Assembly: GCA_030068145.1 (NCBI GenBank)
Contig: JAPJBO010000879.1
Coordinates: 1-64,000 of the forward strand
Origin: Diplonema papillatum
Taxonomy: Eukaryota > Euglenozoa > Diplonemea > Diplonemida > Diplonemidae
Direction of reading: 5' to 3'
DNA: 64,000 bases
This document shows, piece by piece, positions 6,143-50,170 of this stretch; positions within the stretch are counted from its first letter, which is position 1, and each line of letters starts with the position of its first letter. The notes beneath the pieces are model-generated. The model searched no databases and was not told the origin of the DNA. It saw only the letters and a program-made list of their open reading frames with translations. The translations under genes were made by a program, and so were the position numbers.

Positions 6143-7030
6143 CTAGCTCACGACGCAGCAGCGCTCGCTTTCTTCCAACTCTTCGATCTGCCGCTTCATC
6201 TGCTTCTGCTGCGACTCGAACCGCTTGACGGTCTTTTCCAACTCGTCGACCCGCCGGGTGAGCTCTTCCTGGGGCGAGGCGAATATGCTGTGGCGTCCTG
6301 TGTGCCGCTTGGACAGACTCACCGAGGCCCGTGGTGTTGCCGTGTTCTGCCTGCCGTCCGGGAACGAGGACGCGACGCTGGTCCGGGTGCTGCTGTCCGG
6401 TGTGCCGGAGGTTTCGACGTGGGGGATCGGCTGGGTGACAGTGAATTGGTCGAGGGTTGGCGGCAGGGGGCCGCTGTTCTTGCTGGTGGACCGCGACCGC
6501 CGCGAGCTGGCCTTGAGCACGCCTTTCAGCTTGAGCTCGGAGGTGGTTTTGGCGTGGAGAGTTTCGTCTTGTGTTTGCGGGTACTCGACCGCCTGGAAGA
6601 GGGAGATGCTCGGTTGCTTGTTGCTGCCGGGCGGCGTTCGAAGCGGCCGGCCTGGGGCCGGCACGGTTAGCGCTTCGCCGTTGACTTCGTACGCGGATAA
6701 TTTGGACAGCGTGCTGCCAGGGATGGTGAAGGTGGTGTCCTTCGGCGGGGTTTGGGCCGCAGGCTGCTCTTCTGCCTCTTCGATTTGCGGATCTTCGCCT
6801 GCGCTGTCGTGTTCCGCGGGGTTGCCGTTTGGTTGTTGCCCTTTATCGAGGTCCTCGACGGCATACTCAAACGACTTCCCGTGTGGGCCCTTCAGCCGTG
6901 GCGATGCTCTGGGGCTCTTTCTCCCCCGCATCCTGACGTCGTCATTGCTCTCAGCAGATAGTCCGCCTACCGCACCTGCACCAGTTGGAAGTGGGCGGAA
7001 CTGTTGCCATGCCTTTGACCACTGAGGCAT
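6143..7030 (-). CDS. Disordered/coiled-coil protein with C-terminal CaaX-type box
   Basis: A 295-residue ORF starting at ATG 7030. The first 240 residues are rich in Ser, Pro, Thr, Gln and charged residues with no domain I recognise. Residues about 252-288 (from EELTRRVDELEKTVKRFESQ onward) form a heptad coiled coil. The protein ends RCCVVS, so the last four residues Cys-Val-Val-Ser fit a CaaX prenylation box, and Ser at the last position favours farnesylation. A small membrane-anchored coiled-coil protein is inferred. Codon use and frame support a real gene, but an upstream exon (7302-7150) may belong to it, so the N-terminus is uncertain. Two decayed copies of its 3' end lie just downstream. 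Confidence 0.6.
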   Translation of the reverse strand: MPQWSKAWQQFRPLPTGAGAVGGLSAESNDDVRMRGRKSPRASPRLKGPHGKSFEYAVEDLDKGQQPNGNPAEHDSAGEDPQIEEAEEQPAAQTPPKDTTFTIPGSTLSKLSAYEVNGEALTVPAPGRPLRTPPGSNKQPSISLFQAVEYPQTQDETLHAKTTSELKLKGVLKASSRRSRSTSKNSGPLPPTLDQFTVTQPIPHVETSGTPDSSTRTSVASSFPDGRQNTATPRASVSLSKRHTGRHSIFASPQEELTRRVDELEKTVKRFESQQKQMKRQIEELEESERCCVVS

Positions 7031-7149
7031 GGCCGGTCACACAAACCGAGCAGCATGCGGCAGACTGCGAATGTCGGCGGGTGTGTACCAAGAGAGGACA
7101 AAACTAACTCCAAGAAAGAGGCCTGCGACTGCAAGCCTGCAGGTTCGGC

Positions 7150-7302
7150 CGTCTGGTGAGTAACTTCAATTTGCAACGTTTTTCCTCCGGGGAAGGTGAA
7201 GAGTAGGTGTAAGGGGGTCTCTAGCAGCCCTGCGAGCCTCTTGATAGCCTGCTGGGGCGTGACGTTTGCAGGAACTGGCAGCCCTGTGCCTGTCCCGCCC
7301 AC
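7150..7302 (-). CDS. Possible upstream coding exon, unassigned
   Basis: An open minus-strand segment has a protein-like composition, including PQQAIKRLAGLLETPLHLLF followed by a Gly-Gly-Lys turn and LQIE. It resembles a small folded domain, but I recognise no family. There is no in-frame ATG and no unambiguous splice pair to the gene at 7030. It could be an internal exon of that gene or a chance ORF. Confidence 0.25.
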
Positions 7303-7740
7303 CCACTCAGCTTTTTGAACACCGCAGTATCAAACGCATGCGAACCAGCCTTCGTCTAGGTGTCAGTGATCTCTTCGTTTTCTCCGATCGGTTTTTCTTT
7401 TGAATTGATTCGGTGTTCCCACCCTGCGTTTTGTGTGTGCTCAAGTTTGTCAACGCATAGCAAACGTTGACAACCGCATCTTTACATCTTCAAAATATCA
7501 AAAGTTAAGAAGATCGACACTCCTCGGGCAGCTTCTCCGGTCTTCGAATCCGGAGAAACCTGAATTCCTTCGTTGTGCACATGTCGACACCACAATAAAT
7601 TGTGCCAAGGTGCCATGCGGTTCAACGCTGGGCAACTATTACTTATGCAGTGGATGATTGTCGTCCTCATAGCTAAACCGGCAAGTGAACAGGGCGGAGC
7701 CTGAGCCTGAACCGGAGCTCTTGGTACTAGTGGTGCTGCA

Positions 7741-8028
7741 GGTAGTATAGGCTACATGGTAGTGTAGGCTACATGGTAGTGTAGGCTGCATGGTAGTGTA
7801 GGCTACATGGTAGTTTAGGCTATATGGTAGTGTAGGCTACATGGTAGTTTAGGCTATATGGTAGTGTAGGCTACATGGTAGTTTAGGCTATATGGTAGTG
7901 TAGGCTACATGGTAGTTTAGGCTATATGGTAGTGTAGGCTACATGGTAGTTTAGGCTATATGGTAGTGTAGGCTACATGGTAATGTAGCCTACATGGTAA
8001 TGTAGGCTACATAGTAGTGTAGGCTACC
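7741..8028. repeat. 17-bp minisatellite with 34-bp higher-order period
   Basis: About 17 tandem copies of a 17-bp unit alternate between GTAGGCTACATGGTAGT and TTAGGCTATATGGTAGT in the middle of the array, giving a 34-bp period. The flanks keep only the first type. There are no unique spacers, so this is not a CRISPR-like array. Confidence 0.95.
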
Positions 8029-8477
8029 CATGAAGACGGCCTGAAAATAGCCAGACGACTCAAACGAAGGTGCAAAATCGAACGCTGAGTCTCATTCTAA
8101 GACCTCTTTGCCCAAGCCGCGGAAGTGACTTGTTCGCTGAGGCTCGCACGTTGCTGAAATGCTTGTGCTTCGAGGCTAGGTCTCGCCATTCTCGCGTGCA
8201 CTCGTTTCAAGGGGACGACGCTCCTTCGAAAAGGAACTACTGGGCGAGTAGTCGATTCGTCACATCTTCAAATGTTTGCACCAGCTGCTTTGTGACGGAG
8301 GTGGTGAGCAGAGTATTCCATGTCGTTTTCTGCGCGTTGTCACTTGCACATTTTATGGCAGGTTCTGCAACAAGGGTGTTGATCTCTGAAGAAGCACGCG
8401 GTCCATGCAACTATGGATGAACGTGGTACTCGAGTACTGTTGGTATAAAGCGCCACTAGGTAGACGAGAACCGGTGG
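8029..8477. other. Intergenic between minisatellite and PLAC8 gene
   Basis: No domain, RNA gene or repeat is recognised. It is probably the 3' flank and UTR of the PLAC8 gene. Confidence 0.4.
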
Positions 8478-22500: not shown

Positions 22501-25500
22501 CTTGGATGTGCTTTAAGACGTCGGTATTGTGCAGTCTTGCGATTCATCGAGGGAATTTCACAAGGCATTACGAACAAAAACTTCAGGTTCCTTTGGGCTG
22601 GCTGGCGGGGAAAATCTTTTTCCTCCCACCCTCCCTGCTGTTTGTATTCGAGGCCGTGCGGCTCCTCGCGCGAGGGTTATCACCAGCTTTGTTTCCGCCG
22701 CTTTAGTGGCGAGGTCCGGGAGATATGGGGTTCCCACCCTCCGTCCCCCCGTGACCTCCTGGGATAGCCTATTCTGTCACACATGGTGGCTATCTCGGGG
22801 GGCTACCCCATCGTATGTTGGACCCTTGTTTTCCCCCTTTTCTGTATTCCAGTGAAACTTGCAGTAGCAGTATTCTCCTAATGCAGGAGTGAGTAGCCGA
22901 CGGAGAATTCTCGGTTTGGCCCGTTGACACCGGGTGACGGGCCCCTCCACGAATTTATTTACCAAATATGCAAATGCTGGAAGGGTTCGAAAAGTAGAGG
23001 ATGGAAAACGGGCCAAAAGCAACACTACCTACTTCGTAGGATGTCGACGCCCCGGGTACTGCCATAATTGGTTTAATGTTGAAACGGGTAAAACCTGGGA
23101 CACCGGGCTGGGTGTCCCAGTTTTTACCCGGTTCGGCATTTTTTTTTTTTTTTTCGGGTTTGCGACCAGGACCTTATGCAGCCCATTTTCTCCTTCAGAC
23201 TAGACGCCAAGCCCATTGAGTCTTAATGCAGGGGGGGTCCGGGGGGCACCGCCCCCGGAGACGGTGCGGTACATGGAATTTCAGATTCTGTCTTTTTCGG
23301 AACCTGTAACAGGAAACTGATGCCTGGTCACAGGCCTCTGGCGAAAATTCGAAATCTTGTAGATAGTTTATGGGGGGCACCGCCCCTGGGAGACGGTATG
23401 GTACATGGTGCCTAGAATCTGATGTCCGGGCTAAGGCAGGACCTCTTCTGCAGCCAGTAGCACAGCCATAGGAGAAATGATTCCCACTACAGGCACCCAA
23501 AACTTCTGCCCAACCCAAGATTACAGACACCAAACTCCTGCCCAACCCAATGTAAATCAACCCAACCTCCCACCCGATTTTCAATTTTTTTTTGGGTGAG
23601 TTACCTCACCCAACCGCTGCAGTGCATAACCTCCTGTTTGCGACTTTGCGTACTTTGCAGCGTATCGCGACCCTGGTGCTTGCCCGCGCCTTGGGGTGCT
23701 CTATACTCAGCTCGACCCCTAGATGCCGCAGTCATAGGAGGCTGCAGGACCGCCACTGGTGCAGTCACGCAGGTGACAACCTGGGACCCCCCGGGTGTCC
23801 CAGGTTTTACCCGGTCTGTCATTTACCCGTTCCAGCTTTAGTCCAGTTCAACATTATTCCAATTACGGCTTCGCCCGGTATTTTGCGGTATATTGCACTG
23901 CCGACAAACACGATTGGGTGGACATATGTGCTGCAAAAGCCCAGCACCAAGAAGTGTATGTGTAACGCTGCTGCGGTTTGAAAAAAGCTCGCAGCTTTTG
24001 TTTGTGCGCACTGTAGCGGAACTCACCTGCTTTGGTAAGTTTATGTGACACGCTGCCAGTTACAAATTCATAGTACCAACACTGCATTGATATGTTAACT
24101 CTAAAAAAAAAACAGAGGGTGAGGGAGCAGTGGGGGGCAAAGGACGCTACCTGTTCAAGCTCCTTCTTTTGCTGGTCCATCCCCTTGCGCTCGTTGCGGA
24201 TCTCGGCCTGGAGTTTGTGCAGTTTGTTCTCGTAGCGGAGGGTCAGGTCGTTCTTCTCGGCCTGCAGCAGCTTCTGCTTCTGCTGCATGGCCTCCACCTT
24301 GCGGGTGTGCAGGGCCTCTAGCTCTTCGGCCGCCTTCATGTGGGCTTCCGCGTCCTTGGTTTCGCGCTCCTGCGCTTGCACTTTGGCTTGCTGCGCTTCC
24401 GCCACGCTTCGCTCCATTTCTTGGCGCATGTTCTGCAGTTCGAGCTCCGTTTCCTCGTCGACCTTTTTAAGCATAACGCGGTGCTCTTCTTCGAGGCGTA
24501 GCAGTTCGGCTTCTTGCCTGCGCGTCAGCTCTTCGTTGGTGCTTTTTAGCTCGGCGATGATCCTCGCTCTTTCGTCGAAATCGTTCTGTGAGATCAACGC
24601 GATACTCTCAAAACTCGCGTAAGGAAACGGCTTGCGTGCCACCGGTCTGCCATCAACGATGACGTCGACGTCGAACATATACAAGCACCGATCTTCGCCC
24701 ACGGTGAAGAGATGCCGCTCGTCCAAACTGAGCACGACGAAAGAGATTTCGCCTTGGTGCACCTCCATGTGGCTGTACGGCTGGGGGGTTTCGCCACCGT
24801 CGTCGGTGGGCGGCCATTCGAAGAGGAGGAGGGATCCCTCGCTGGTGCCGACGAAGAGGGTCTGCGCCAGGGAGGAGATGGCCATGGGGCACGTGCGCGC
24901 AACGCGCGGCTGCCGGTGGCTCTTCTCGAGGACCGCGTTGTGGCACGTCGGGAGCTTGATCGGCGTCGAGAGCACCTTCTGCGCAGTCTTCGGGGGGTAG
25001 TCGGTTTGGAAGCGGAACGTCCGCAGGTTCGTCTCGATCCGTGACTTGCCGTCGGATCGGTCGGCACCCGGCTTGTACGTTCCGAGTGCTGCGAGTGTCT
25101 GCGAATCGTCATCGTATCTGTGATATGGTCCGCATTTGCAATACTGCACCGAATAATTTGACTGGACCTCTTGAGTTTTGTGCTGCCCACGGTTGCGGGT
25201 GTCGAAAGCTCACATAGCCTGGAGCAGGGCCGGCATCAGTACACTCTTTCCCGAGGAATGAGCGTCAAATTTTCTATTTTTAGCTCTTCCGACCCGACCC
25301 ACGTTCATGGGCGAATCTGGTTCCTCGCATAGGGGCTTCAGCCCGAGCTTCACTTTTACTGTCTGCCAAGAGCTGCGACTCAACATACGTGCGCATTGCG
25401 ATCGCGTGATAAGTTGCGTGAAGGACGACACTATAACTACTGATTTTGCTTTAGTAGTACCAACAAAGCATTGGCGGGGGCAAAAAAAAAAAACAGGAAA

Positions 25501-28500
25501 CCCGGCGGGATACCTGACGCAGTGGTACATGACGTTCTTCGTGACCGATTCGTTGGCCTCGTTCCGCTTGCCGCAGGTCACCTTCCACTCGTAGATCGCG
25601 CCCTCGCTGCCGGCGGAGATGAGCATTTGGTCGCTGTGCGACCACCAGATGGACTGCACGGCGGCCGAGTGCCCCGTGAGAGGCACGCCCCCCGGGTTCT
25701 CCTTGCTCGTCAGCGGCTGGAATGTGTACGTGTTGAACACCGAAATGCGGCACCAAGGGTTGCCGATGGCCGCGAAGTACTGCCCGCCGTGGCTGAACTT
25801 CACCTCGCGGCACTGCTTGATCCCGGGGAACTCGTGGCAGAGCATCAGGTCGTTCGTTAGGACGACGAACACACACAGCTTGTACCGGAAGCCCACTGCC
25901 AGCAGCAGGCCGGACGGGTGCAGGGCCACGCTGAGCGCGTCGTCGTCGAACTTCTTGTCGACCTCGACTCTCTTCTTCAGGAAGTTCCACAACCGGACGT
26001 GCCGGTCGAGCGACGCGGTCACGATCACGCTCCGCTGCACGCAGACGTCAATCCCCGTGATCACGTCGTTATGGAACCCGATGGGCAACCGCTTGAAGGC
26101 GTTGTGCTTGTCTACTCGGTCACCCTCTTCGATGCTCTCGACTAGATTGAGATCTATTTGCGCGACCTGGGCGGGGTTGGTTGCAGAATTCGGTCAAAAG
26201 AAGTAGAGGAAAAAATATATATGACGTGTCACTGGCTCACGGTTGAAACCGGAAAATGATAAGGGGAGGGAATTGTTTTTCGTTGAACGCTTACGCCCGC
26301 CACTAAACCCAGATTCACCTGAGTTTCGTGTGGGCTACAGCACATTTACCTCCTTTGATCTTTTGCAGCTGGCAGCCTCCTCAAGTATTTCCTACAAAGC
26401 AGGTGCTAATACAAAAAAAAAAGAGAAAAAAAGACAAACGCTTCGTTGTGTTCGTGCGTGCCGGTTAATCGTTTACACTTAATTTCACCATATTTGACAA
26501 TGACTGTTCAATCGCCAAAACACGCCGCCGTACGTGTTCTTTTAGCATCGCACAATTTTGTAGGGCAACCCACAAGATCGTTGGTACGGAAAATCGAAGA
26601 ACTATGTCGTTCTCCATCCCCCTCCCCCGGAAGATGTATACCTCGTTGTTGTCGTAGCAGCAAACCACGCTTTCTTCGCCAGGGCTGATAGTGACGTCGA
26701 TCACGCGCGCGGTGCCGTCGGGTCCGGACACGCGTTCTGGCGTCGTCATCAGCTTGAAGCGGTTGAAGTAGTCAGAATCGAAGCTTCGTTCGAAGAGGGC
26801 CAGGATGCCCTCGTCTCCGCCCGACACAAACCCGCGGCTGACGCTGTGCAGGCACGAGATGCCTCTGCCGGGCCCGTGCGCGTCGGCAATCGTCCGCTTC
26901 AGCTCTTGGTTGTCGAAAACCAGGATCACGCCTTCGGCGGTGCCCACGACCAGTTTATCGCTGTCGAACCACGAGTGGCACGTGAACCGATACTCCGTCG
27001 GGTGCCGCGCCAAAGGGTCGTGCGCTCGCAGCTGGTTGCCCTGTGAAAACGATGCGGTTCTGGGTCACCAACAGAAGTAAATTTGTTGCATTAGTGTGAT
27101 TGTCAGGCCGTCGACTACCCTGAGCAACGCATTATTAACAGAATATTTCGAAGAATGATCCCTCCCGGTGCGTATCCCGACGGGCGGCTAGAGCGGGGGG
27201 GGTTCAGAAACGATACAACTTCGAAGGTGGGGGGTCCTTCTATTGTTGAACATTTGCGTTGACTCGCCGGTAGGAACAAACCCCGATTGGCAAAAATGAC
27301 GAGTGCTTGATAGTTGCGGGTCTTACCCATGTCGTTTCATTGGGAAAAAGACCTTGTAGTTGAGGCATCGACTGTCCGCCATAGCAAGGGCTTGTGAGCC
27401 GCCGGTGTGTCTGCGTAACCACAACAGGGTATAGTTTGGCTCGAGCGCTGGGTTGAGTCCTTCCAACGAGCAAATCGTAGTTGCTGGTTCCAGTCGGGAC
27501 CGGAAGCACGCAGGTCGCACGGCAGCTGCCGTTCTCGGTGCAGAAATTTGTGTGCTAGGAGTGCTTCGGTTTAGCGATCGTTCGAACTCGAAAGCAACAT
27601 CACGGGAAGGCTAAGTCAGAGAGGTTTCCCAAAATTGGTATCAACAAGGATTAGTCGAGGTGGATGCACTTTCTATTTACAGCAAGCCATTTGAGGGAAC
27701 CGAGGTGGAGAAGTGCATACCTGAGCTCTCCAGAGGCGCAAGAAGGAAGTGCCTGTCGTGCATAGCTCCCAGTGTGCCCAAGGAGACACGCTGATTTGGC
27801 TGATGCGATGGTGTACCTCTGCCATGCCTGCCAAACGCTGCTTATCGAGCTGCCACAGGTAGATGTACGGATCAGGCGGGTCCGTGACTGTGGCGAGGTA
27901 CTTGTTGTCCCGAGAGAAGTCCAGAGCCACGACTGGCGGCTGCATTCCTTCCTGGTTGCTGGGGAAGCGACCCTTGCCGAGCTCTCGCACCTGGTTTCGG
28001 TTGGTGTGAAAGTTGACTTGAGGCGGTTCGCGAATACGCCGGGTCTGTGCCCCCCTTTCCTTTCCGTCCACCTGGGGACTTCCCCCTCCATCCAAGTCTT
28101 ATCCTTCTTAGCGGTTCGGGGTTTGCCATTTCCCGGATCATGACTACAGGTTCGTTCTGGGCTGTGGGGAAATCACAATTTTTATTCCGGCCTTTTTCCA
28201 AAACCAGCTTCAACACAATACTGGTTTTGGAAACTGAGAAACCGTCTTCGGTACGGATAATGAAGTGAAGATTCCCCTGTTGCCGGGGGCAGGAAAATTC
28301 CAGAAGGAGGGGTTGTGTCCGCAGGAGGAAAATTTAGAAGCTCCTGTGGATCGGAGAATGAGGTAGTGCGTTCTCCGCTTCTCCCGTGACATATTCCTGC
28401 ACATTTGGGGGTGGTCTGATGGTCGGGAGACACAAGTCGCGTACCTTTGATGCAGTGCTGAAGTTGTAAACCGAGACTTGGATCCCGCCGGAAGGTTCGG

Positions 28501-28882
28501 GATGGAGCACCTCGGAGAGGGCGATGTATCTCCGGTTGGCGGAGACGCAGAAGGCGACGATCCGCGAGGTTTTCGGGTGTTTAAGGACGAACCGGTGCGT
28601 CTTCTGGCTCTCGTATGAGTACACAGCCACGTGCTTCCCCGCTAGGTACACGATGCCGTCGTCGCTGATGTGGTCGACGATGTTCCGACCGTGCCCATGC
28701 GGCTCCGAAGGCGATCCACCTGTGAACCCGAGCGAGTGGTAGAACTTCAGAGAAGTCTTCGCGACGCTCGCGTGCGGCTGCTGCTGCTGCGGCGGCGGCG
28801 GCGGCGATGCAGCATCCGCTGCGGGCTTCTTCTCAGACTCCGCATCTTCGCCTGCCCGTTCAACGGGCGGGGCGTCGGACAT
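19584..28882 (-). CDS. CFAP57: CFAP57 (WDR65) ciliary WD40/coiled-coil protein
   Basis: Eight exons: 28882-28445, 27990-27721, 27040-26603, 26166-25514, 25117-24151, 22474-22394, 21602-21447 and 20792-19584. All join in phase, giving about 1400 residues. The first five exons encode WD40 propellers matching CFAP57 block by block, including FHNDVITGIDVCVQRSVIVT, SLDRHVRLWN, ALHPSGLLLAVGF, HGGQYFAAIGN and SEGAIYEWKV. From the FDERARIIAELKSTNEEL stretch onward it is a long coiled coil, as in the family, ending in a Ser/Pro-rich segment and a last short helix. CFAP57 helps assemble inner dynein arms on ciliary doublets, so this organism builds motile flagella. Introns carry repeats: a SINE-like copy in intron 3 and an 809-bp inverted-repeat element in intron 5. 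Exon 3's donor could instead be at about 26588, also in phase. Small exons may be missed in intron 5. Confidence 0.9.
23061..23869. mobile_element. MITE-like element with about 90-bp terminal inverted repeats
   Basis: The left arm (23061-23150) and the reverse complement of the right arm (23775-23869) share TAATTGG, AATGTTGAA, ACGGGTAAA and GGGTAAAACCTGGGACACC. The interior holds a direct repeat of GGGGGGCACCGCCCC with GAGACGGT (23234 and 23372) and no ORF with a domain. It lies inside CFAP57 intron 5. Confidence 0.6.
26281..26425 (+). repeat. SINE-like repeat, near-consensus copy in CFAP57 intron 3
   Basis: The best-preserved copy: GTTGAACGCTTACGCCCGCC, CACTAAACCCAGATTCACCT, GGCTACAGCACATTTACCTC, CCTCAAGTATTTCCTACAAA and a tail (A)10GAG(A)6. 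It is antisense to the host gene. Confidence 0.8.
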
Positions 28883-29954
28883 CGTGCTGCCCGCACCGCC
28901 CCTCCAAGCCCCCTTCCCCCCAGGAGGGCCAGTACCTTTTTGATTATTACTTGTTTCGTAAAGGGGGGGGGGGGGGGGGGTGTTGGGGGGGGGGGGGGGG
29001 GGGAAAACGAAGTTCTAACCCTGGGTGGGGGTGGGTACCCCCCCCCCTCCTGGTGCAACCCACTGTGGACCTACTGTGGGACCCACCTTAGCTAAATTCT
29101 CGAAGGTGAAATGGTGGAAAAAGTGGGTCAAAAAAACTTTTTTTCGAGTGCTTTTTTGGGAGGATTTGGGCCAAAAAAAAAATTTTTTTTTTCTTTGTCG
29201 CTGCTGAGGAAACCACCTTGGGCGGTCACCACCCTGCTGCACACAGGCCCTGCAGGAGGGGGGGGTCGTTGTATAATGGTCTAGCTTGAAGGGAATTGGA
29301 GAGGTTGAAAAAGGTTTTTGGGGTCTTCGTCGGTTTGTGTTTTTTTATTTATTTTTTTCCGGATTTTTTTTTGGTTTTTTTGTTATTATTTTTTTCGGGG
29401 GTTCGCGTAACCCTTCTTTTCCGGAAGATAACGTTATCTTTTCCTTTCTCTCTGGCGCTCTTTTTTCTCTCTATCTCTCTCTTTGGCTAGCAAAACGACT
29501 GTTGCGACCGACATCACGATCACACCCGTATTGAATGTGACCAAGGGCTCCCCACGTTCTACATGTTGAGCAGGAGTTGCCATGTAGCCCGTACCCGTCT
29601 AAGCCTTCATTGTAACTTCCATAAGTATCCCCGTTGGGACGGGTCCGACGGTCCGTTAGTCATCAGCGACATCGGGCGGGGGAAAAAAAAAAAAAAAAGG
29701 AATTTAGAAGAAAGGGGAAAAAGTTGGGTGTGTGGGTGGATAAGCTCGTGGTAGGTTGTTCGGAAATAAGTACAACCTAAAACTACGCCTAGCACAGGGC
29801 CAGGCGGGATATGCGTGCCTTCATCCTCTCATGATAGTGCGCATTCACCCGTATAGAACACTTCGAGTTGTTTCCCGTTAGTCAGGGTGAACGGGTGCAG
29901 AGCGTAAAATAGACCAGCCAACAGTCAGGAATTCGATGAGGCCCAAACGACGGT
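28883..29954. other. Spacer between CFAP57 start and RT-USP ORF; G-rich tracts
   Basis: Contains G runs (28964-29003), a CTGCAGGAGGGGGGGG motif at 29247, T-rich stretches (29340-29395) and an A16 tract at 29682. The part adjoining CFAP57 is its probable promoter and 5' UTR. The part next to 29955 may be the 3' tail of the retroelement. Confidence 0.5.
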
Positions 29955-32528
29955 TCAGAGTCTTTCACTCGCGAGGCGGCAACGTCTCTCATGTGCACGG
30001 AGTCCCTTCAAACCCTGAAACTTCTGCCCATCTTTGGTACACTCGATGGCGCAGTGTTGACACCGCAGCGCAGGGGATCCCGCCCACTGCTGCTCCAACA
30101 GCTGACCATGCGGGGTCGGGCATAAGGAGTCCGGCAAGGGCGGGCAGGGCAATGGACTACCAGAAGGGTAGAGCAGGTTAGGTGATTCTTCCGACTGTCG
30201 GTTCACCACAACACCGGCAGAATTTGGGGGCGTAGACGAGCCGCGTAGCTGATCTTGAGCAGGAAGTATCATGGAGGGTGACGGCGCACGGACAGTCACG
30301 CTGTGGGCAATCTGGGGGACCCGGACAAAGGCCGCGAGGTAAACATTGTCCCAAGGAATGTCCTCGACGAGGCTGACCCGTAGATCGTCGAAGAGGATCC
30401 AACCTGAGTCTTGCGCAACGTACGTGACGAAGTGCCCACTAGCCGTACTCTCCCCCAAGTGCACCACGACTGCAGCGAGGCGCAGTAGGTGGCCCGGTAG
30501 CTCTAAGAGGAGAGGTAACCCAACGTCATTCCGGCGTCTAGCGCCATTTCTCGTGTAGATGCCAAATTGCATCAGTACACAATCAGCCGTTAGCCGGAGG
30601 TTCGTATCCTCTGCCACAGTCCCTACAGCTTCGCAGTCGCACCCTCTCTTCGGATTTACAAACCCGCGTACGCAGAGAGAATCTTCCAGCCTTTTTCCGC
30701 AGGGGATCTGCAGACATTGTACCGCCTGAGGGCTGGAACTAGTTCGTCCACATGCCTCACATCGTGTCGTGTTGGTCCAACGGTTCTCCACGCATGCTAA
30801 GAAGAGCTGGTAGCCCGGGCAGGGGGCCTCGGTTTCGTCCGGTCCCAGCGTCGTCTCAGTCGCGTTCAGGATCGCTACCAATGCTTCGTGTGCATCGTGC
30901 TGCAGCGCATCGCAGAAGTTTGGGAACATGTTTAAGACGGCCTGCACACCCATTCTTCGACAGTCCTGGCTGCGCTGGTCCCCGCTGTCGCGCGAGCTTG
31001 CTAATACGGCAAAGTAAGCCAGGAAGTCCCGGAGGAATCCACAGCAGTTGAGGCGGTCCTGAGCAAGGCTCCAGTACATCTCCCTGATCGGTTCAACCCG
31101 TATGAGGAGTTGCAGCACAGCACCAAGGAAGCACGTATTCCCCAGATTTGGGAGGCCGGCAGGACCAAACAGTGCCGGATCATGCTTCACGAAAGGCGGA
31201 CTTGCACAGATGACCGATTGGCAGCGTGTGGATGTCGGGGGAACTGCATGAGCTGGTTTACAGGCATTCGCCCGGCGTCGCTTCGAGTCACGTTGCTCGT
31301 CCCCTTCAGCCTTTCGTTTGTGGCCCTTCCGTGTGGACTCAGGGGGGGTGGTCGAGTCTGCCTGTCGGGCCGACGTCTCGGGGGATGGCGGTGGGGGGGA
31401 GTCGGCTTCTGGAACGGGTTGGGGGTGGCCTCTGTACTTCACAAAGGGCTTCTCAGCCAGAAGGCGCTCAATCGCCTGGTCCATCGCGGCCGGTTCTGGC
31501 ATCAACAGGACACGTTCCACCTCGTGGATCAGCCAAAAGAAATGTGCACGCACTTTCCCGCAATGCTCGCCAAACTTAGCCTCCGGATACGTATCTAGTA
31601 GCCACTTGCGGAAACCGCTCTTTAGTACGCTCTTACGGTAACCGCGTCGCATGAGTTTCAAAACCGTGTTGTTCATCTCAGTTTTGAAGTCATACAGGTT
31701 GTTGGCGATCCTACCGTTACGAACGAGGGCCCCAATGAGGATACTCGAACCGAAGTTGGACGGGGCCGTCGAGAGGACCGACGTGTACGCGAGGGGGCGG
31801 TATGGGTAGGCTTTCGCTTTGTCCAGAACCGACAGTCGCATGTACCTCCTTCCAGACGCGTCGGAGACTTCGTGTCTTATTCGTATGCCAAGGAAGGTCG
31901 AATCCCCTACGCATGTGTTCGTCTGCTTGTATCGCATGCTGTAGATGGATTCGGGCGGGGGTTTCGTCCCGAAGCACAGTAGGTCATCGATGAAACGGCG
32001 CGTCATGCTGAGGAGTGTAGCCCGTCGGATTTCCTTTTCAGCCAGGAGCTTCAGCATGTACCTTTTCTCCTTTGCGTAGCAGAAGAGATTTGCAATGTCC
32101 GGGGAGGCGTTAGCACCCATCGGGATGCCCAGTATTTGCCGCATGAGGGTGCCATTCACCAGTACATACGTGTTCGCTAGGCAGAAGGCAAGGAGAGCTT
32201 TGAGGTCCTGCGCGGAATACGCTGCCTGCTGCGAACTTAGCTCCGTCGATAGCTTGAAAGTAAAACAGCGTTTTTTCCTTTGTGGCCCGTGCTGGCTCTT
32301 CGGTCGTACCAGGACTAGGTCTTCAACCCGTATGCCAAGCCGTTCGGCTTCCGCCGCAAAAGCCTCGTCGATGGTATTGGAAATCTCTTTCAACAGCTCC
32401 TCGAGCCCCAGCTGGTCGTACATGGTTGTGAAGTCAAACGTACCAGCAACTAGACCCGAGAGCTCAGGATGCAGGAGGGGGGGGACCCACCCACCCTCGT
32501 TGCCGTCCGGCTGACAACGATGCCGAGT
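29955..32528 (-). CDS. Penelope-like reverse transcriptase fused to ubiquitin-specific protease, 5'-truncated
   Basis: One uninterrupted frame; its first ATG is 32423, but the RT motif A (GTFDFTTMYDQLGLEELLKE) begins 5' of it and the frame opens at 32528. Residues below count from that ATG. The RT has GIPMGANASPDIANLF (99-114) and the catalytic FIDD (144-147), in Penelope-like style, and a thumb to about 330. RT fingers and any GIY-YIG nuclease are absent. A Ser/Pro linker and basic signal (KRKAEGDEQRDSKRRR) lead to a USP/C19 domain with the Cys box GLPNLGNTCFLGAVLQLL (Cys431), a zinc ribbon with CEAC and CDC, the His box GHFVTYVAQDSGW (His664) and Asp680. A terminal CQHC with HERRC resembles a zinc finger. 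All protease catalytic residues are present. I infer a 5'-truncated retroelement copy encoding a deubiquitinase. Confidence 0.8.
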   Translation of the reverse strand, partial: TRHRCQPDGNEGGWVPPLLHPELSGLVAGTFDFTTMYDQLGLEELLKEISNTIDEAFAAEAERLGIRVEDLVLVRPKSQHGPQRKKRCFTFKLSTELSSQQAAYSAQDLKALLAFCLANTYVLVNGTLMRQILGIPMGANASPDIANLFCYAKEKRYMLKLLAEKEIRRATLLSMTRRFIDDLLCFGTKPPPESIYSMRYKQTNTCVGDSTFLGIRIRHEVSDASGRRYMRLSVLDKAKAYPYRPLAYTSVLSTAPSNFGSSILIGALVRNGRIANNLYDFKTEMNNTVLKLMRRGYRKSVLKSGFRKWLLDTYPEAKFGEHCGKVRAHFFWLIHEVERVLLMPEPAAMDQAIERLLAEKPFVKYRGHPQPVPEADSPPPPSPETSARQADSTTPPESTRKGHKRKAEGDEQRDSKRRRANACKPAHAVPPTSTRCQSVICASPPFVKHDPALFGPAGLPNLGNTCFLGAVLQLLIRVEPIREMYWSLAQDRLNCCGFLRDFLAYFAVLASSRDSGDQRSQDCRRMGVQAVLNMFPNFCDALQHDAHEALVAILNATETTLGPDETEAPCPGYQLFLACVENRWTNTTRCEACGRTSSSPQAVQCLQIPCGKRLEDSLCVRGFVNPKRGCDCEAVGTVAEDTNLRLTADCVLMQFGIYTRNGARRRNDVGLPLLLELPGHLLRLAAVVVHLGESTASGHFVTYVAQDSGWILFDDLRVSLVEDIPWDNVYLAAFVRVPQIAHSVTVRAPSPSMILPAQDQLRGSSTPPNSAGVVVNRQSEESPNLLYPSGSPLPCPPLPDSLCPTPHGQLLEQQWAGSPALRCQHCAIECTKDGQKFQGLKGLRAHERRCRLASERL

Positions 32529-35342: not shown

Positions 35343-38300
35343 TCACGCGTTTCCACTCGCCTTTGGCTTCAGCTCACTCGGCGAGGCAGCCGATACAGGA
35401 AGCATCGTCACAAAAGGCGCCGCCTTCAGCTCCGCGACCGACGTGACCACAACAGAGATCGTCTGCAAGTCGACGTTGTTCGCTTTCGAGCAAAACAAGT
35501 GCCGGGCGCTCAGCGCTGCCAAGCCGCCGGGGTGCACCTTTTTCTTCAGCGCTGTGGTCTCCTGCGCCGGTTTCGCGTGGAGAATCCACGCGTGCCGCAT
35601 GAGCGCGGCGGAGGGCCACCGAGACGTCTCCTGCGGGGACAAGCAGCAGCGCAGGAACGAGTTCGCCAGCGCGGAGAGGCCGTGCGGGGTCTTCGGCGGC
35701 AGCGGCTCGCTCCAGTGGCTGATGGTCTGCAGGGCCTGCACGACGGACGGGAACGACGGCCACGGCGACCGCCCGGTGTTGAGCAGCTCGCAGCAGAGGA
35801 TCCCGAACGACCACACGTCGGCGGAAGGTGCGCACTCACACCCTTGGACTACTTCGGGCGCCATCCACAGCGGCGTCCCCTTTGTCGACGCATCGGTCGT
35901 CTGCAGCTGCGGGGGGCAGGAGCCGAGGTCAGTTATTTTCACCGCGTTCGATACCTCGTCGACGATGACGTTGTCCGCCTTCACGTCACGGTGCACGACA
36001 CCACGGGCGTGCAGGAACGATAGGCCCGCCAGCACTTGCTTCGCGAAGTCGACCGCCTCCGCCTCCTTCAAGCGCGGGTTCGCTCGCAGGAAGCAGCCGA
36101 GGGTTCTGCCCCGGATGCTCTCCGACACGATGCGGATTTCCTTCGTCTCCAGCGACAGCGTGCACGACAGCACGGACACGATGTTCCGGTGCCGGATGCC
36201 CTCGAGGACCTCCAGCTCTCGCTGCACCACCTCGACGCTGCCTTCACTCATGCCATCGCTTAATGGAACAGTCTTCACAACCACACGGTCTTCTTCTTCT
36301 TCGTTTTCTTCTTTTTCCTCTTCTTTTTGCGCGGAAGGCTCACGTTCGGCGCGTCCGTTGCCTGTTCCATTAATTGGTTGCTTAAGTTGGTGTTGTTGGT
36401 GGTGTTGTTCTTGTTGTGTTTGCTGCTCTTCCGGCTGTTGCTGGTCTTCCCCATCGGCCGGTGCTCCGTCATCGCAGGATTCCTCTTCGTCCGACAAGAC
36501 GCCGACGCAGTTGTCGGCGAGTTGGTTTAAAGTAGATTCTTCGAGAGATTCGAAGGGGAGGAACTTGACCCTTCTCGAGCTGAGGGCGCGAGGCGACGCG
36601 GGCATTCCGAGGGGGTCCGTAAGCAGCGCGCCGTCCTCGAGCTGGGTGCTGCTTAGCCCGCGGGTGATGTACTGAGGAGTTGGCGACAGCGGCGTGTGCC
36701 CCGGGGACGTCACTTCCGACGCGGACGACGGCCGGCGGTGGAAGCTGAGCTCCGACAGCGGGGCCGCGGGCACCGACCGATCAGCGAGTGTGATCGAGCA
36801 GCTTTGCTCCCACTTCGTGACTTCTTCCTTCGCCATCCCGTAGGCCACCAGCGACTTCGCGATGTACCGCAGGTCCAGCCGCAGGTGCTGGAAGTCTGCT
36901 TCCGCGTCGATCAGGCGGCCCCGCAGACGCTCCGCCACCGTGGACATCGCGTGGCGCAGCACTTTCAGCGTGATCTCATCCGTCCGCACGTACTCCGCGC
37001 ATGACGACGACAACCGCTCGCACGCCGAGCTGAGGGCCCGGCACAGCGAGATGCCGAACGCGCTGACAGACGTCGGGGTGTCCGTGAAGCCGTTCGCTTC
37101 TTTGAGCTCCTTCGTGATCAGCCGCGAGATCTCGACGCATTCCCCCGCCGCGTATCTGTTCAAGACGCCGTCGGACATCAGGCGGATGGTGTCGGCGGTG
37201 TCCTTTCCGATTAGGTCGAACTGGAGGCCCTTCAGGTACTCTAGGTTGGACAGGAAGTAGAGGAGGATCGCGCGGAGGAGGCAGTCCTGCGCGTGCGACG
37301 TCTGCCGGGGCGCCGGCTCGAAGGGCGAGAAGCACGGCGACGCGACCGCGCCCGCCACGTTGCGGGACAACGTCTTCCGCACGAACGACTTCACCAGCGC
37401 CGGGGGCACCGCGTACAAGAGGGCTTCCGAGATCCGGGCGACGTGCGAGACGAGGGTGCCGGCGACCTTCTGCGCCTTCTCGAGCGCCGTGCCCTGCTTG
37501 CTTCTCGAAGCGACGCACATGTGGTTCGCCAGGAGGCCGAGGCGGTGCGACACCACGTCTTCGGCGGACTTCAGGATGTCCGCGGCGGCAAGCCCGCCGG
37601 CCTGCAAGCTTTCGGAGAGGGTTCCGACCGTCTCTGTGGGAAACATAGAGGTAGGTAGAGGGAAAATACAAGCGCAACCTGATTTGTTCTGTTCCCGTGC
37701 ATGGTTTTTTTTTTTTTTTTTCACTCAGGACTTTTGGCCTGTTGCGTTTGTGCGTGTCTGACCCGCATGACCCCACATTCATTCAACACGTGGTTCGGTA
37801 GTTACAGCACTTGGGATCCTCGGTTACGTTGTTCTTTGTCTCTGTGGCAGCTTGAGCATTTCCTTCCAAGCTGGCGCTTATGTCAAAATACTCGACGTAG
37901 CTGCTTTGACTCCGAATGGAAGGGAGGACATATGGAGGTAGAGGGGAAAATACAATACAAACTGGCGCCTATGTAAAAATATTTCTTCGGTAAGAGAGCT
38001 TCTGCCTTCCACTTTAAACCCAGTCTCGGAGAGGCATACTTGACACATGAAAAGTACAATCGTACATTTGCAAAATCGCTTGCCGCGGTAATCCTGAGTC
38101 TTGCTTCGATGAGAGTATCGGTGCACACTGTTCTCCTACCCCTGTCACACGCCAACAAAGTCGTTGTTGGGGAGCTTTCGTCGTGAGCTACAAAGTGCTC
38201 GTGCGTTTCTTTTCAGATCCAGTCGGGGAAAAGGGGGAAAATGCTGGAGCTAAAAAAAGACGACACCCCACAGAAGAAAAGGCTGTTTGGCATACCAGTC

Positions 38301-45469: not shown

Positions 45470-48400
45470 CTACTTCCGTGCGCGTTTTGGTGCCGGTTCG
45501 TGCATGCTGTCAAGCAGGCGGGCAGAAACCTTTGCTGCTGGCTTCAAGCGCACGGGTAACGGCAGTTTAGCCCCCGGCTCCGATGGTCGAGATGGGACCT
45601 GGCGCTCTACACTTGCCTCCGTGGATGTTGAACTGGAAGCTGAAGATGTCGTCGAGCCAGAAGAGGAGGACCGTGAAGAGGAGGACGACTGCGACGACAC
45701 CGAAGATGAAGGCAGTGATGCATTCGGTGAATCCGAAGACTCGGATGCATTCGCGAAGGACATCGCCGACCACGTTTCGTTCCCTGACCACGGCGCGAAA
45801 GACGGTACAACGCTACACCCCGAGTACTCAGTGCGCATATCCCCGTTAACCTGCTCGAATGCGTCGGCTCTATCCGTCTTCTTCTTTCCACCAGTCTTCC
45901 CCCCATGACGACGATTCTTCCGAGAGTGCCATATCTTGGCGCCGAGAGTGCAGGTTTCGCTTACTTCTTCATCGGTCATTCCTTTACCCTGTTCAGCGAG
46001 AATGAGTTCGTTGCTCAGAGTCTCCACCACCAAATGGGGCCGATTGCAACCCACGCGTTGTTTGGCCTTGCTGAAAAACGACTCAGCTACGTTGCTGTTG
46101 TAGCGACTATGTGTGTGGACCAGCGCCAACACGTCAATGGCTCTCTGGTTGCCTTGTTCTTTTAGGGTTGCGAATACTCCGGTCCAGGCGTTCCACCCCA
46201 AGTCCTTGAACTGAACGGCAAGAATTTTTATGTCTTGCCAGTCCTTCTGTACGGAGCTCGCTTCAAACCTCCCGACGAAAGCAGCCAAATAGGCGTACTC
46301 TTCGTTACCGTACGCCTTCAAGTCGGCTCCGGAGAGCACCTGCATTTTTTGTACGTCAAGAATGAGAGAGAGAGCTACGGCGTGGTCATCCTTCTTTATC
46401 TTTTCCTCGACGGCTTCGAGCGCCTTCGCGACCTTCGCCAAGCGACGTTTGTTTTCGTTGCCATCGGTCATCCCTTCGATGGCCATACGAGCTCGGCTCA
46501 ACCGAAACTGCAAATGCAGAACGGTGGGCTCTTGATGCTGCGAGGCCAGCGAGATATTGCGCAACATCCTTAGTACAGGATACCACTGCTGGAACTGCTG
46601 AGCCCTGCGCTCCTTCCCAAAAACGCCAAGCAGCTCCTTTCGCTTCGCTGCGAGGTTATCCTTACCCTTCTTGGCATCCGCGGAGTGCCAGTCCCGCGAG
46701 CGCTGTTCCAGAAACATCTTCCAGAGTGGCCACAATGCAGCGGCCTTCTCCCACAGACGAAAGGTTTTTGGCAACCACCGAATAGAGCAATGGAGGGATG
46801 GTTTGGGACCCGCAGCAAAGCCTTGCAGCTTAGCGAAACGCCTGAGTCGGCGATAAAGCTTTCCGGATGTTCGCAAGTTCGCCTCCATCGTAAGAATTGC
46901 TTCCGTGATTTCTTCAACAACGGATGAATCGAAGGCTCGCTCAAGTTCGGTCTCCAGTCGGTGCGAAAAGTCCGGAACACGGGCACACTGAGGGTTGAAA
47001 TCTTTCTTCAACAAACCGTATACCCCTGTGATGTGCCCCGCTAGATTCGATCCCGAATCACTGCAGGTTGCCGTTATCTGCTGTGCCGCAACGCCGAAAT
47101 CTGCAAGCATCGCACGAGACTTCAAGAAGATGGTGTTGCCATCTGTATCGTCGGAAGCCTCGAACCCCACGAGTCCCAAGGCAGTTTCTTTAACTGCGCA
47201 CAACGATGAGACGAAGTAGCGTAGGATAACTACATACACCTCCATCTGCATTGCGTGCTTCAGTGTCGTTCCGTCCAAGATCAGCACAAAGGAGCTCGAT
47301 ACACTTAGTTCCTTGGCGATGCGCACTTGTGCGATGGAAGCCCAGATGCCCACCATTTCCGAGACGTGTGAAGTGGTGTTGTACTTCTTGGGTATATCAA
47401 TACCCCGCAATCGGTCGGCTCTTATCTGCCGCACGGAACTTCTGTGAGACACTCCTTCGCACACCCTGATGAACATGGGAACATGCAAGTTGAAGAAGCG
47501 CTGCAGCCTCTCTTCCGAAAGGTAAGGGGTCTCGGCAAGCTCAGCCTTGAGACTGACCTCAAACGTGTTGCCTGCTTGCGGGTGCGCGTCTGACCGGAAG
47601 TTGGCAGGGACAACGCGGAACGCGATCGCAGCAGCAGCAACCGTGAGGTACCCGACTATTACAAAGGCACCGTATCGCACGACCCACAAAGACACTCGGT
47701 GCGCGTTGGAGTTGCGGTGCCGCGAAAGAGCTGTCCGCGCGGCTTCATCGGTTTGATAAGGGCCCGCCGTACCCTTCGCAAATGCGGCAGCAACCCCCGA
47801 AGAAAGGCTGCCCCAGATGAAGACGTGCGTGTGATGGCAAGCAAGGCACATGTACCCTCCGGGGACCCGTTCCGTTTCTCTGTTGATTCGAGCAAACGGC
47901 GATAGCTGGGGCCGAAAAAGTGGGGCAGGATAGAATGGCTGCTGCGTCGACTTCTTCTCTTCCAGCATCGCCTTGGTATCCGGTGCGGCGGTGAAGGAAA
48001 CGCAGAAGAAGTGGTTTAAGAGGTGGCTGCTGGAGGGGAGGCGGAGGTTTACAACACACACATCATTTGTCCGCAGAGCCTGGAACCTGAAACTCGATAC
48101 GCTTCCAAGGTCCTTCGAGATGAACTTCAGTCCATTTTTGCATGCAAAGGCCTGGACTTCAAATGTTGTCAAAGCCGGGGGTTCCTCACCAACTCGCAAG
48201 TGCTCCTTGATGGACTCCCACCTCTTTTCCGACATGCCCAGCATGTTCGGTGACGTTCCACGGAACCAGGTGTACAGTTCTGGAAGAGATGCGTTGTCAG
48301 CTCGGGAGAAGGGAATTCTCTTTAGTTTTTCCCCAAGAAAACACGCGTTGTACCCACAAACCAACCCATGCTGATGCGTTGTTTGGGTATGAGAGCCCGA

Positions 48401-49672
48401 CACGAGCCGCTTTTCGCTAGCAAACTCCGCTTCCAGCTCCCTCCTCAAGTCAGGACAAGCAGTGGACAGGTGATCGACAATGCGGTACACGAGCCGCTGC
48501 GTTTGTGGCTCTTCGGATTGCGTAGCCTCAGCAATACTCTGTTGGAGGGCTTTTTTTGTTCCAGTGGTCTTGATACCAATGGCTGCTGCTTCGGCCTTGA
48601 GCTGCTCAAGTGTCTTCTTCACTGTATCCGACGTCGGCGTGGGAGGCTGATCGTCGTCCGCGTTTGCAGGTGTAGCAGGTGCAGGACCTACATTCGCTAC
48701 AGGGTCTGGGCTGTTTGTTGCAGCGCACGGCACATGTTCTGGACTTACGTCGGATTGTTGTTGTTGGGCGGGGGAGCATTTGGTGCACTTCACGTCTTTG
48801 AAAAGGCAATAGAAAGCTTTTCGTTTCTGTCCCGCGAAGGACCGATTCCATCCCGAAGCCTCGGGAAGCCAACTCAAAAGCTTTTGGTGAAAAGCCTTTC
48901 GGCGAGCCTTCTCTATCCCCAAGAGGTCAAAAAGCTGCTCAGCACAGAGACTGTGTTGCTCGCCTTTCGCTTGGACGATGGACGCAACCGCAGCATTGAA
49001 TGACAGCGCACCATCAATCGAGTCGGCGCAGCCAGCACAAGCGGCCCCAACAACGAACAAGCAGTACAGCTTGCCGCGTCTACTCCAGCCTTCGTGCAGT
49101 CCTTCGCTGCGCCACTTCGAAACGCTTTGCGAAACCAAATTTGCCTCGCGACCTTCCATTTCCAAGAGCGCGAAAAGCTCTTCGTGGTTGAGGTGGTGCT
49201 GAGGGCCGTGTTTACAAACGGCTTTCTCAACTGCAGCATTGAACAGCTGGACGGAGCAGGTATCCACTGTAGTAGTGGTGTCTCCTGAACTTGCCGCACC
49301 GAACTCGGTCTGCACCTGCCGAAGGACTGCGTCCGCGGACCACTTCTTGCGCTTCACAAGCCCCGAGGCCCTTTTCTGCATGCTCTGATACGTTCCTCGT
49401 ATCGGCTTCAGCAGCCTGCGTCCAACTTCTTCCCACGTTGCCACCTGGACACCGGGCAAAACGACACAGAATTTCACTCCTTCGTTGTTGGAGCTAATTC
49501 CCAAGTTTGGGTTGCTTGCGGCAGCAAGCTCAGCCTGAAAGGCTTGCGCGTCCTGTGTTTGCGAACCACGCAAGTCGCGGATACGAGCAAGCACCCTTTC
49601 CTCACTCCATTCAACGCACTCTCCAAACGTGCCGTCTGCAACAGCTTCAATGAAGAAGGCGGCATCCGTCAT
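45470..49672 (-). CDS. hAT-like transposase, 1400 residues, with N-terminal extra domains
   Basis: A single ORF from ATG 49672. The catalytic part follows the hAT RNase-H plan: LILDGTT (Asp800), CSDSGSN (Asp872), DFSHRLE (His904), SIRWLPK, and NVAESFF near 1250 as the likely Glu. N-terminal to it are two copies of a roughly 85-residue unit ending YCLF with CAGC or CTKC (residues about 145-320), a SAP-like segment (KKTLEQLKAEAAAIGIKTTG, about 360-385), and a region with VCGYNAC (Cys439) and NHFFC (His554) that resembles a papain/Josephin-fold protease. A C/H cluster YMCLACHHTHVF could bind zinc. The C-terminus is Ser-rich with a basic tail (PKRARK). It would bind the long inverted repeats and cut them. 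The ORF is intact, so the copy could be active. Confidence 0.7.
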   Translation of the reverse strand: MTDAAFFIEAVADGTFGECVEWSEERVLARIRDLRGSQTQDAQAFQAELAAASNPNLGISSNNEGVKFCVVLPGVQVATWEEVGRRLLKPIRGTYQSMQKRASGLVKRKKWSADAVLRQVQTEFGAASSGDTTTTVDTCSVQLFNAAVEKAVCKHGPQHHLNHEELFALLEMEGREANLVSQSVSKWRSEGLHEGWSRRGKLYCLFVVGAACAGCADSIDGALSFNAAVASIVQAKGEQHSLCAEQLFDLLGIEKARRKAFHQKLLSWLPEASGWNRSFAGQKRKAFYCLFKDVKCTKCSPAQQQQSDVSPEHVPCAATNSPDPVANVGPAPATPANADDDQPPTPTSDTVKKTLEQLKAEAAAIGIKTTGTKKALQQSIAEATQSEEPQTQRLVYRIVDHLSTACPDLRRELEAEFASEKRLVSGSHTQTTHQHGLVCGYNACFLGEKLKRIPFSRADNASLPELYTWFRGTSPNMLGMSEKRWESIKEHLRVGEEPPALTTFEVQAFACKNGLKFISKDLGSVSSFRFQALRTNDVCVVNLRLPSSSHLLNHFFCVSFTAAPDTKAMLEEKKSTQQPFYPAPLFRPQLSPFARINRETERVPGGYMCLACHHTHVFIWGSLSSGVAAAFAKGTAGPYQTDEAARTALSRHRNSNAHRVSLWVVRYGAFVIVGYLTVAAAAIAFRVVPANFRSDAHPQAGNTFEVSLKAELAETPYLSEERLQRFFNLHVPMFIRVCEGVSHRSSVRQIRADRLRGIDIPKKYNTTSHVSEMVGIWASIAQVRIAKELSVSSSFVLILDGTTLKHAMQMEVYVVILRYFVSSLCAVKETALGLVGFEASDDTDGNTIFLKSRAMLADFGVAAQQITATCSDSGSNLAGHITGVYGLLKKDFNPQCARVPDFSHRLETELERAFDSSVVEEITEAILTMEANLRTSGKLYRRLRRFAKLQGFAAGPKPSLHCSIRWLPKTFRLWEKAAALWPLWKMFLEQRSRDWHSADAKKGKDNLAAKRKELLGVFGKERRAQQFQQWYPVLRMLRNISLASQHQEPTVLHLQFRLSRARMAIEGMTDGNENKRRLAKVAKALEAVEEKIKKDDHAVALSLILDVQKMQVLSGADLKAYGNEEYAYLAAFVGRFEASSVQKDWQDIKILAVQFKDLGWNAWTGVFATLKEQGNQRAIDVLALVHTHSRYNSNVAESFFSKAKQRVGCNRPHLVVETLSNELILAEQGKGMTDEEVSETCTLGAKIWHSRKNRRHGGKTGGKKKTDRADAFEQVNGDMRTEYSGCSVVPSFAPWSGNETWSAMSFANASESSDSPNASLPSSSVSSQSSSSSRSSSSGSTTSSASSSTSTEASVERQVPSRPSEPGAKLPLPVRLKPAAKVSARLLDSMHEPAPKRARK

Positions 49673-50170
49673 GTTTGTTGTTGTGTATTTACTGTATCTC
49701 AGGCTCCCTGCGGGAATAAATAGCTACCGAGAGCAGAGATGATTAATCCTTGTTTTAGTGTACATACTAAATACCGAAAGGTTTCCTCGGCCCTCGACTC
49801 TTGTTTTTTTAGCCCGTTTCTGGAACAGCGCTCGCGGGACGGGCACTCCGCGGATGCCAAGATTAGGGTAAGGATAACCTCGCAGCGAAGCGAAAGGAGC
49901 TGCTTGGCGTTTTTGGGAAGGAGCGCAGGGCTCAGCTCCTTGTGTCCACTGCGGCAGATCGTCGTCCGTTGAATGCCTCCGCAAAGTCGGCATTGCCCAA
50001 GCTGCCGCCCTCCGTAACTCCTTCGTGCCAGCCTGACCTGGCCAGCGGCAGTTGGGGAGTCGGTCGCTTGACACTGGGTGACCTGCCAGCCATGCAGGAG
50101 GGGGGGGGGGGGGGGCCCCCCCCCCCCCCCCCCCACCCCCACCCCTGACCGCGATCCGTAACATGTAACA

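Follow-up and report, generated by a model that had tools for sequence, protein, structure and literature searches.

Does a single protein of the marine single-celled protist Diplonema papillatum join a reverse transcriptase (RT) to a ubiquitin-specific protease (USP) and, if so, to what kind of genetic element does it belong? The question is raised by a 64,000-nucleotide stretch of contig JAPJBO010000879.1 (positions 1 to 64,000; hereafter the window), whose minus strand holds at 29955-32528 one open reading frame of 857 codons from stop to stop, 822 from the ATG. As the original prediction proposed, RT motifs of a Penelope-like element (PLE) and a USP domain do lie in this single frame (Table 1). 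Cys431 and His664 were numbered correctly in the ATG frame, and an Asp box is present, but the catalytic residue, which we take to be the first Asp of FDD, is probably the invariant Asp679 and not the proposed Asp680. The localisation signal placed between RT and USP corresponds to a basic stretch whose role as a signal is putative, and the zinc finger expected at the end of the frame was found as a zinc-finger-like motif. Two points required correction: the frame as a whole is not the element, as its first 20 codons are flank, and the RT is not intact, everything upstream of about FDFTTMYD being gone because the copy is 5'-truncated. On the comparisons described below, an RT of the PLE type continues in frame into a USP that is apparently complete, and the fusion is multicopy and under purifying selection.

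Searching the D. papillatum genome (271 Mb, 2,910 contigs) with the window frame gave at least 54 matching rows on many contigs, two of which are probably halves of one copy; these counts are lower bounds, as 53 of 1,703 first-look candidates were scored. Counted by hand, family A accounts for 14 rows, with 99-100% identity, while the other 40, mostly family B, match at 77-86%; 24 of the 54 have open frames of at least 1,500 amino acids. A chance fusion can be dismissed because only one of these 54 rows has an internal stop. A frame break, or separate RT and USP genes, was sought as evidence against the fusion in 21 copies (20 loci and the window copy), and the RT-USP frame proved unbroken in every one, with the USP Cys box and the RT word RLSVLDK in the same frame; together with the genome rows, this contradicts a misassembly or frame artefact. 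The same frame also includes a GIY-YIG domain in 14/21 copies and the finger in 19/21; in L020 the FIDD motif lies outside the frame holding the USP Cys box, and in L016 and L019 the homologous stretch or the contig ends before the finger. The idea that a deubiquitinase had taken the place of the GIY-YIG nuclease is thus rejected: that domain is found near the N-terminus in those 14 copies, and its absence from the window copy is due to truncation.

The complete element measures approximately 7.9 kb, as given by the period (7,901 bp) of one tandem pair, two copies lying head to tail on contig C230; on C257, a piece of the element 3' end stands ahead of a complete copy. We read both layouts as the tandem or pseudo-long terminal repeat (pLTR) arrangement described for PLEs (PMC11167929, PMC9033089, PMC12910113). 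The complete protein, about 1,500 amino acids in one frame from the first likely Met, carries an N-terminal GIY-YIG domain, a CxC segment, a telomerase-like RT, the USP and the zinc finger, and the RT structure model from a complete copy matches TERT. The GIY-YIG motif, with the Arg, His and downstream Glu..Asn that we take to be its functional residues, is present in families A-D, and Pfam scores (cut-off 22.6 bits) were 22.6 for P0001, 23.0 for P0002, 27.0 for family D and 20.0 for the family A copy L012. An Rfam scan of 30,575 bases from five loci gave no hammerhead ribozyme at E up to 1. In L009, a family A copy is succeeded head to tail by a partial second copy at 6987-8201 (+), which has a 405-codon frame and is, in DNA, about 84% identical to A and 91% to B. 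A partial large-subunit ribosomal RNA match (L031 2215-3501, minus strand, 152.6 bits) overlaps sequence surrounding a family B element's 5' end; thousands of dispersed 28S pieces in Diplonema are mentioned in the genome paper.

The window copy is probably a dead-on-arrival insertion of this multicopy PLE, and the parent element has apparently been active recently. The window copy is 98.6-99.8% identical to 12 other family A copies over the stretches aligned by blastn. Apart from the pair at its ends, the duplicated word is found one further time on either strand of the window (50093-50107 minus, 44573 plus), and the target is therefore partly repetitive. When the junctions of 11 copies were compared, a common word past the C-run was found in four (15 bases in the window copy, 14 in L015, 13 in L020, and in L018 a 13-base exact core within a longer mismatched match); L009, L011 and L023 have in common the C-run only, or one or two bases before it, and L010, L021, L022 and the C213 copy no notable junction word. 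In all 18 cases inspected by eye, the 3' end abuts a run of at least six C, and the element apparently targets C-tracts; the window has 31 runs of eight or more C or G, against 2.8 in mononucleotide shuffles. Also by eye, the family A copies of L018 and L017 stand at a C-tract that follows family D-like 3' sequence, so that insertions of the two lineages are nested within one another. Splicing at a site near 32466, immediately upstream of the RT, was considered; other copies have an insertion junction instead.

The UCH profile, the Cys, His and Asp residues and the fold all assign the protease domain to the USP class, and it looks able to strip ubiquitin from proteins. The three catalytic residues are invariant in 8/8 aligned element USPs, even in some pairs only 14-24% identical to that of the window. 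Identity to solved USPs is 17-25% over the aligned part among the 50 matches listed, and the best fold matches include USP46/USP12, USP1-UAF1 and the SAGA Ubp8 module, with differences of less than 2 Z. Cellular USPs such as USP46/USP12, USP14 and Ubp8 are alike in fold and catalytic residues, whereas here the domain lies within a retroelement protein.

A telomerase-related RT, a GIY-YIG domain in the same frame, direct repeats (pLTR) or tandem copies and 5' truncation identify the element as a PLE, and the N-terminal position of the endonuclease with a CxC before the RT relates it to the Chlamys/Naiad group. Chlamys endonucleases are not known to have a CCHH motif. By eye, none was seen in families A-D; extra cysteines lie before and in the domain of the relatives P0033 and P0037. 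An N-terminal endonuclease and a CxC before the RT are reportedly the features by which Craig et al. 2021 define Chlamys/Naiad; the likeness to this group extends to the telomerase-like RT, tandem copies, pLTR-like repeats, 5' truncation and insertion into simple repeats, while the C-terminal USP (Josephin or OTU in some relatives) and the euglenozoan host differ. Families A-D have the CxC; of 26 aligned rows, 22 extend to its place and 20 of these carry it, P0034 and P0036 being the exceptions. The endonuclease-deficient class (Athena/Coprina type) was rejected, given the GIY-YIG domain in 14/21 copies. Canonical PLEs (Penelope/Poseidon) also have GIY-YIG, a telomerase-like RT and pLTRs, but their endonuclease is C-terminal, and a Poseidon element carries a hammerhead ribozyme (PMC11167929). 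Ginger1 DNA transposons, with a C-terminal OTU or Ulp1, and a Trichomonas transposase with C19 likewise join a mobile-element protein to a ubiquitin or SUMO protease; these are DNA transposases without RT, on which such domains may act on repair (PMC2836005). C19 as such thus has a precedent among transposon proteins. NeSL/Utopia non-LTR elements, which are not PLEs, fuse an RT to a cysteine protease of the ubiquitin-like-protein class, but theirs is N-terminal and Ulp1-like and is accompanied by a restriction-like endonuclease (PMC4640811). The Ectocarpus paper assigns its own PLEs to Chlamys and states that no PLE had previously been reported from TSAR (PMC12477816). The original prediction knew of no described USP fusion to a Penelope-type RT, and our search of the open-licence PMC literature found none; Craig et al. 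2021 lies outside that search.

Relatives were sought with the window frame (10 matches), the family D RT (28) and a ten-row profile (9), each search scoring the 8,000 candidates with most shared words. Family D is a 1,448-codon frame adjoining a family A copy on C239, with GIY-YIG, CxC, RT and USP, the last forming the end of the protein; it is flanked on both sides by 388-bp repeats of 99.7% identity, and its RT is 35% and its USP about 23% identical to those of family A. Besides families A-D, a USP is present in P0019 (EukProt Rhum, taken to be Rhynchopus humris) and in the ENA proteins P0025 and P0037, and similar C-terminal zinc-finger-like motifs (pattern only) occur in several relatives. 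P0037 has a Pfam UCH match (2.9e-18) and, by eye, a Naiad-like cysteine-rich endonuclease, and gave no match to PDB sequences at E 0.01. A Josephin domain scores 29.4 bits in a cut piece of P0027 and 24.4 in the whole protein, and a weaker 16.1 bits in P0026 (cut-off 26); P0022 has a possible Ulp1-like domain by eye, to which Pfam gave no support. A Pfam protease was not seen in P0004, P0021, P0024, P0028-P0033, P0036 and P0038, nor in the long C-terminus of P0035 (EukProt EG_transcript_109, presumably Euglena gracilis). Matches to an arenavirus glycoprotein or polymerase, obtained with parts of D or with the RT model, were weak or of the general polymerase-fold kind.

In an RT tree of 25 rows, none of them a named Chlamys sequence, with P0033 and P0037 set as outgroup and the partial frame P0034 excluded, a single clade (support 100/99) unites the USP families A-D, P0019, P0025 and the OTU row P0020 with P0004 and P0021, which have no Pfam protease; the Josephin rows and P0029 come next (89/94). 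Long branches affect some rows, and a program warning was given for two joins between them. The approximately unbiased test rejects the seven diplonemid USP rows as a single RT clade (p 3e-5; the group was defined once the tree was known), an expected outcome given that P0004 and P0021 lie within it. On this tree, with P0029 unscored and P0022 coded as Ulp1-like by eye, parsimony requires seven changes of C-terminal state, or five when only protease presence is scored. In the tree built from the nine element USPs alone, two branches are very long and there is no outgroup of cellular USPs; no inference was drawn from it. In bits, the window frame scores 39.7 against the P0019 USP, 36.9 against solved USP14 and 12-21 against the three D USPs, and the family D USP 26.4 against solved USP21 and 9-12 against the A-C USPs. 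One capture for all families is therefore not supported; the scores lean towards separate captures or very fast divergence. Whether N-terminal-endonuclease PLEs collect deubiquitinases serially, with USP (in the diplonemid families, an ENA relative and a Naiad-like element), Josephin, OTU and possibly Ulp1-like domains gained separately near the C-terminus of the RT protein, we regard as evenly balanced.

Judging from element anatomy and PLE/R2 biochemistry, the GIY-YIG domain would cut at C-tracts, the RT would copy element RNA from the cut, often halting early and leaving 5'-truncated copies, and gap filling would produce short duplications starting with the C-run. For one canonical PLE, in vitro work reports that reverse transcription initiates internally and that DNA cleavage depends on GIY-YIG (PMC11167929). 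The USP would free the element's own RT/endonuclease particle of ubiquitin in cis, allowing it to survive until integration. We consider this whole explanation, a truncated insertion of an apparently recently active PLE with target-primed movement and a cis-protective USP, to be probable; the protection of the element protein from ubiquitin-dependent loss, taken alone, is a more tentative proposal. Related elements bear unrelated deubiquitinase folds near the same end, which argues for selection on the activity rather than on one particular protein and suggests that ubiquitin removal helps the element to spread. Several observations weigh against this explanation: seven of the 11 copies compared have no duplication beyond the C-run; the USP model has a mean predicted local distance difference test score of 55.6; evolution is faster in the USP than in the RT, as would also be expected of a host-directed or relaxed role; and the D USP resembles solved cellular USPs more than it does those of families A-C, which leaves a single ancestral capture unsupported. 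Furthermore, the OTU match of P0020 is below the Pfam cut-off (20.8 of 23.3 bits) and was listed only on scanning the C-terminal part alone, the best PDB match of P0020 (E 0.4) being an unrelated protein, and P0004 and P0021, without a Pfam protease, branch among USP-bearing RTs, indicating that the USP is dispensable in some lines.

An alternative is a host substrate: where the element inserts, the USP would deubiquitylate chromatin or repair factors such as ubiquitylated histones or repair clamps. The presence of USP46/USP12, USP1-UAF1 and the SAGA Ubp8 module among the best fold matches, the basic linker beside the domain and the repair factors proposed for OTU and Ulp1 on DNA transposases in the Ginger paper (PMC2836005) are consistent with this, but such closely spaced fold ranks are uninformative on substrate, no adaptor or histone-binding part was found, and unrelated folds (USP, Josephin, OTU) would each need the same target; we find this rather unlikely. 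Faster evolution of the USP and the existence of relatives without a Pfam protease would also fit a ubiquitin- or protein-binding module, or a cutter of the element's own polyprotein, with no general deubiquitinase activity, a role made improbable by the invariance of the catalytic triad across such divergent sequences. Finally, a host deubiquitinase gene could stand beside a broken RT through chance, domestication or misassembly, as the window copy, taken alone without GIY-YIG and part of the RT, might suggest, and as might NCBI models naming some copies ubiquitin carboxyl-terminal hydrolase 16 or 26. NCBI lists these as hydrolase genes because the element protein carries a USP, and some models, in which parts of the element are fused to other genes, are probably artefacts of annotation, as judged by sequence for P0005, P0007-P0010 and P0013 and by name for P0014, P0016 and P0018. 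This reading is already contradicted by the many genome rows, the insertion hallmarks and the same RT-then-USP order in families A-D, the Rhum transcript and the ENA proteins, and is extremely improbable.

The other frames noted in the window are all on the minus strand. WD40/EML-type beta-propeller frames occupy 23863-28882 (Pfam EML propeller E 1.5e-19 in 25213-26193); among them is an ATG frame ending at 28882, and the end of the element copy lies approximately 376 bp upstream of it. A 793-residue frame at 35346-37724 has a protein kinase domain (Pfam E 3.8e-43), and a 1,417-residue frame at 45473-49723, with a SAP match just below cut-off, may by eye be a transposon protein.

Table 1 Features of the RT-USP element copy in the window.
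Feature	Position	Strand	Basis or remark
RT-USP Penelope-like element, family A, 5'-truncated copy, 3,209 bp	29258..32466	-	blastn
Open reading frame from first ATG (822 aa): RT part, linker, USP, linker, zinc finger	29955..32423	-
Telomerase-like RT, C-terminal part (FDFTTMYD, GIPMG, FIDD, RLSVLDK)	31434..32465	-	upstream RT part missing
RT motif FDFTTMYD	32415-32438	-
RT motif GIPMGANA	32106-32129	-
RT motif RRFIDDLL	31977-32000	-
Basic stretch, RT-USP linker; putative nuclear localisation signal	31272..31337	-
USP (peptidase C19) domain	30318..31166 (about)	-	Pfam UCH E 9.7e-21
USP Cys box	31128-31166	-
USP His box	30420-30440	-
USP Asp box	30381-30401	-
USP zinc-ribbon cysteines	30747-30761 and 30627-30641	-
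C-x2-C-x19-H-x3-C zinc-finger-like motif, C-terminal	29979..30062	-	pattern only
Element 3' untranslated region, C-tract at end	29258..29954	-
Target-site duplication, 5' copy, CCCCCCCCTCCTGCA	32470..32484	-	TCC (3 extra bases) separates duplication from element
Target-site duplication, 3' copy	29251..29265	-	C-run overlaps element's aligned 3' end

No retroelements stand closer to telomerase than PLEs, whose life in the cell has been little studied. The active-site Cys of the USP offers a one-residue test in Diplonema, for which gene replacement has been reported (PMC10161547). A deubiquitinase in the same protein as RT and endonuclease, selected and perhaps gained repeatedly, points to ubiquitin as a battleground between PLEs and their hosts and, if deubiquitinases were indeed collected serially, escape from ubiquitylation would be a recurring, selectable step in PLE retrotransposition.
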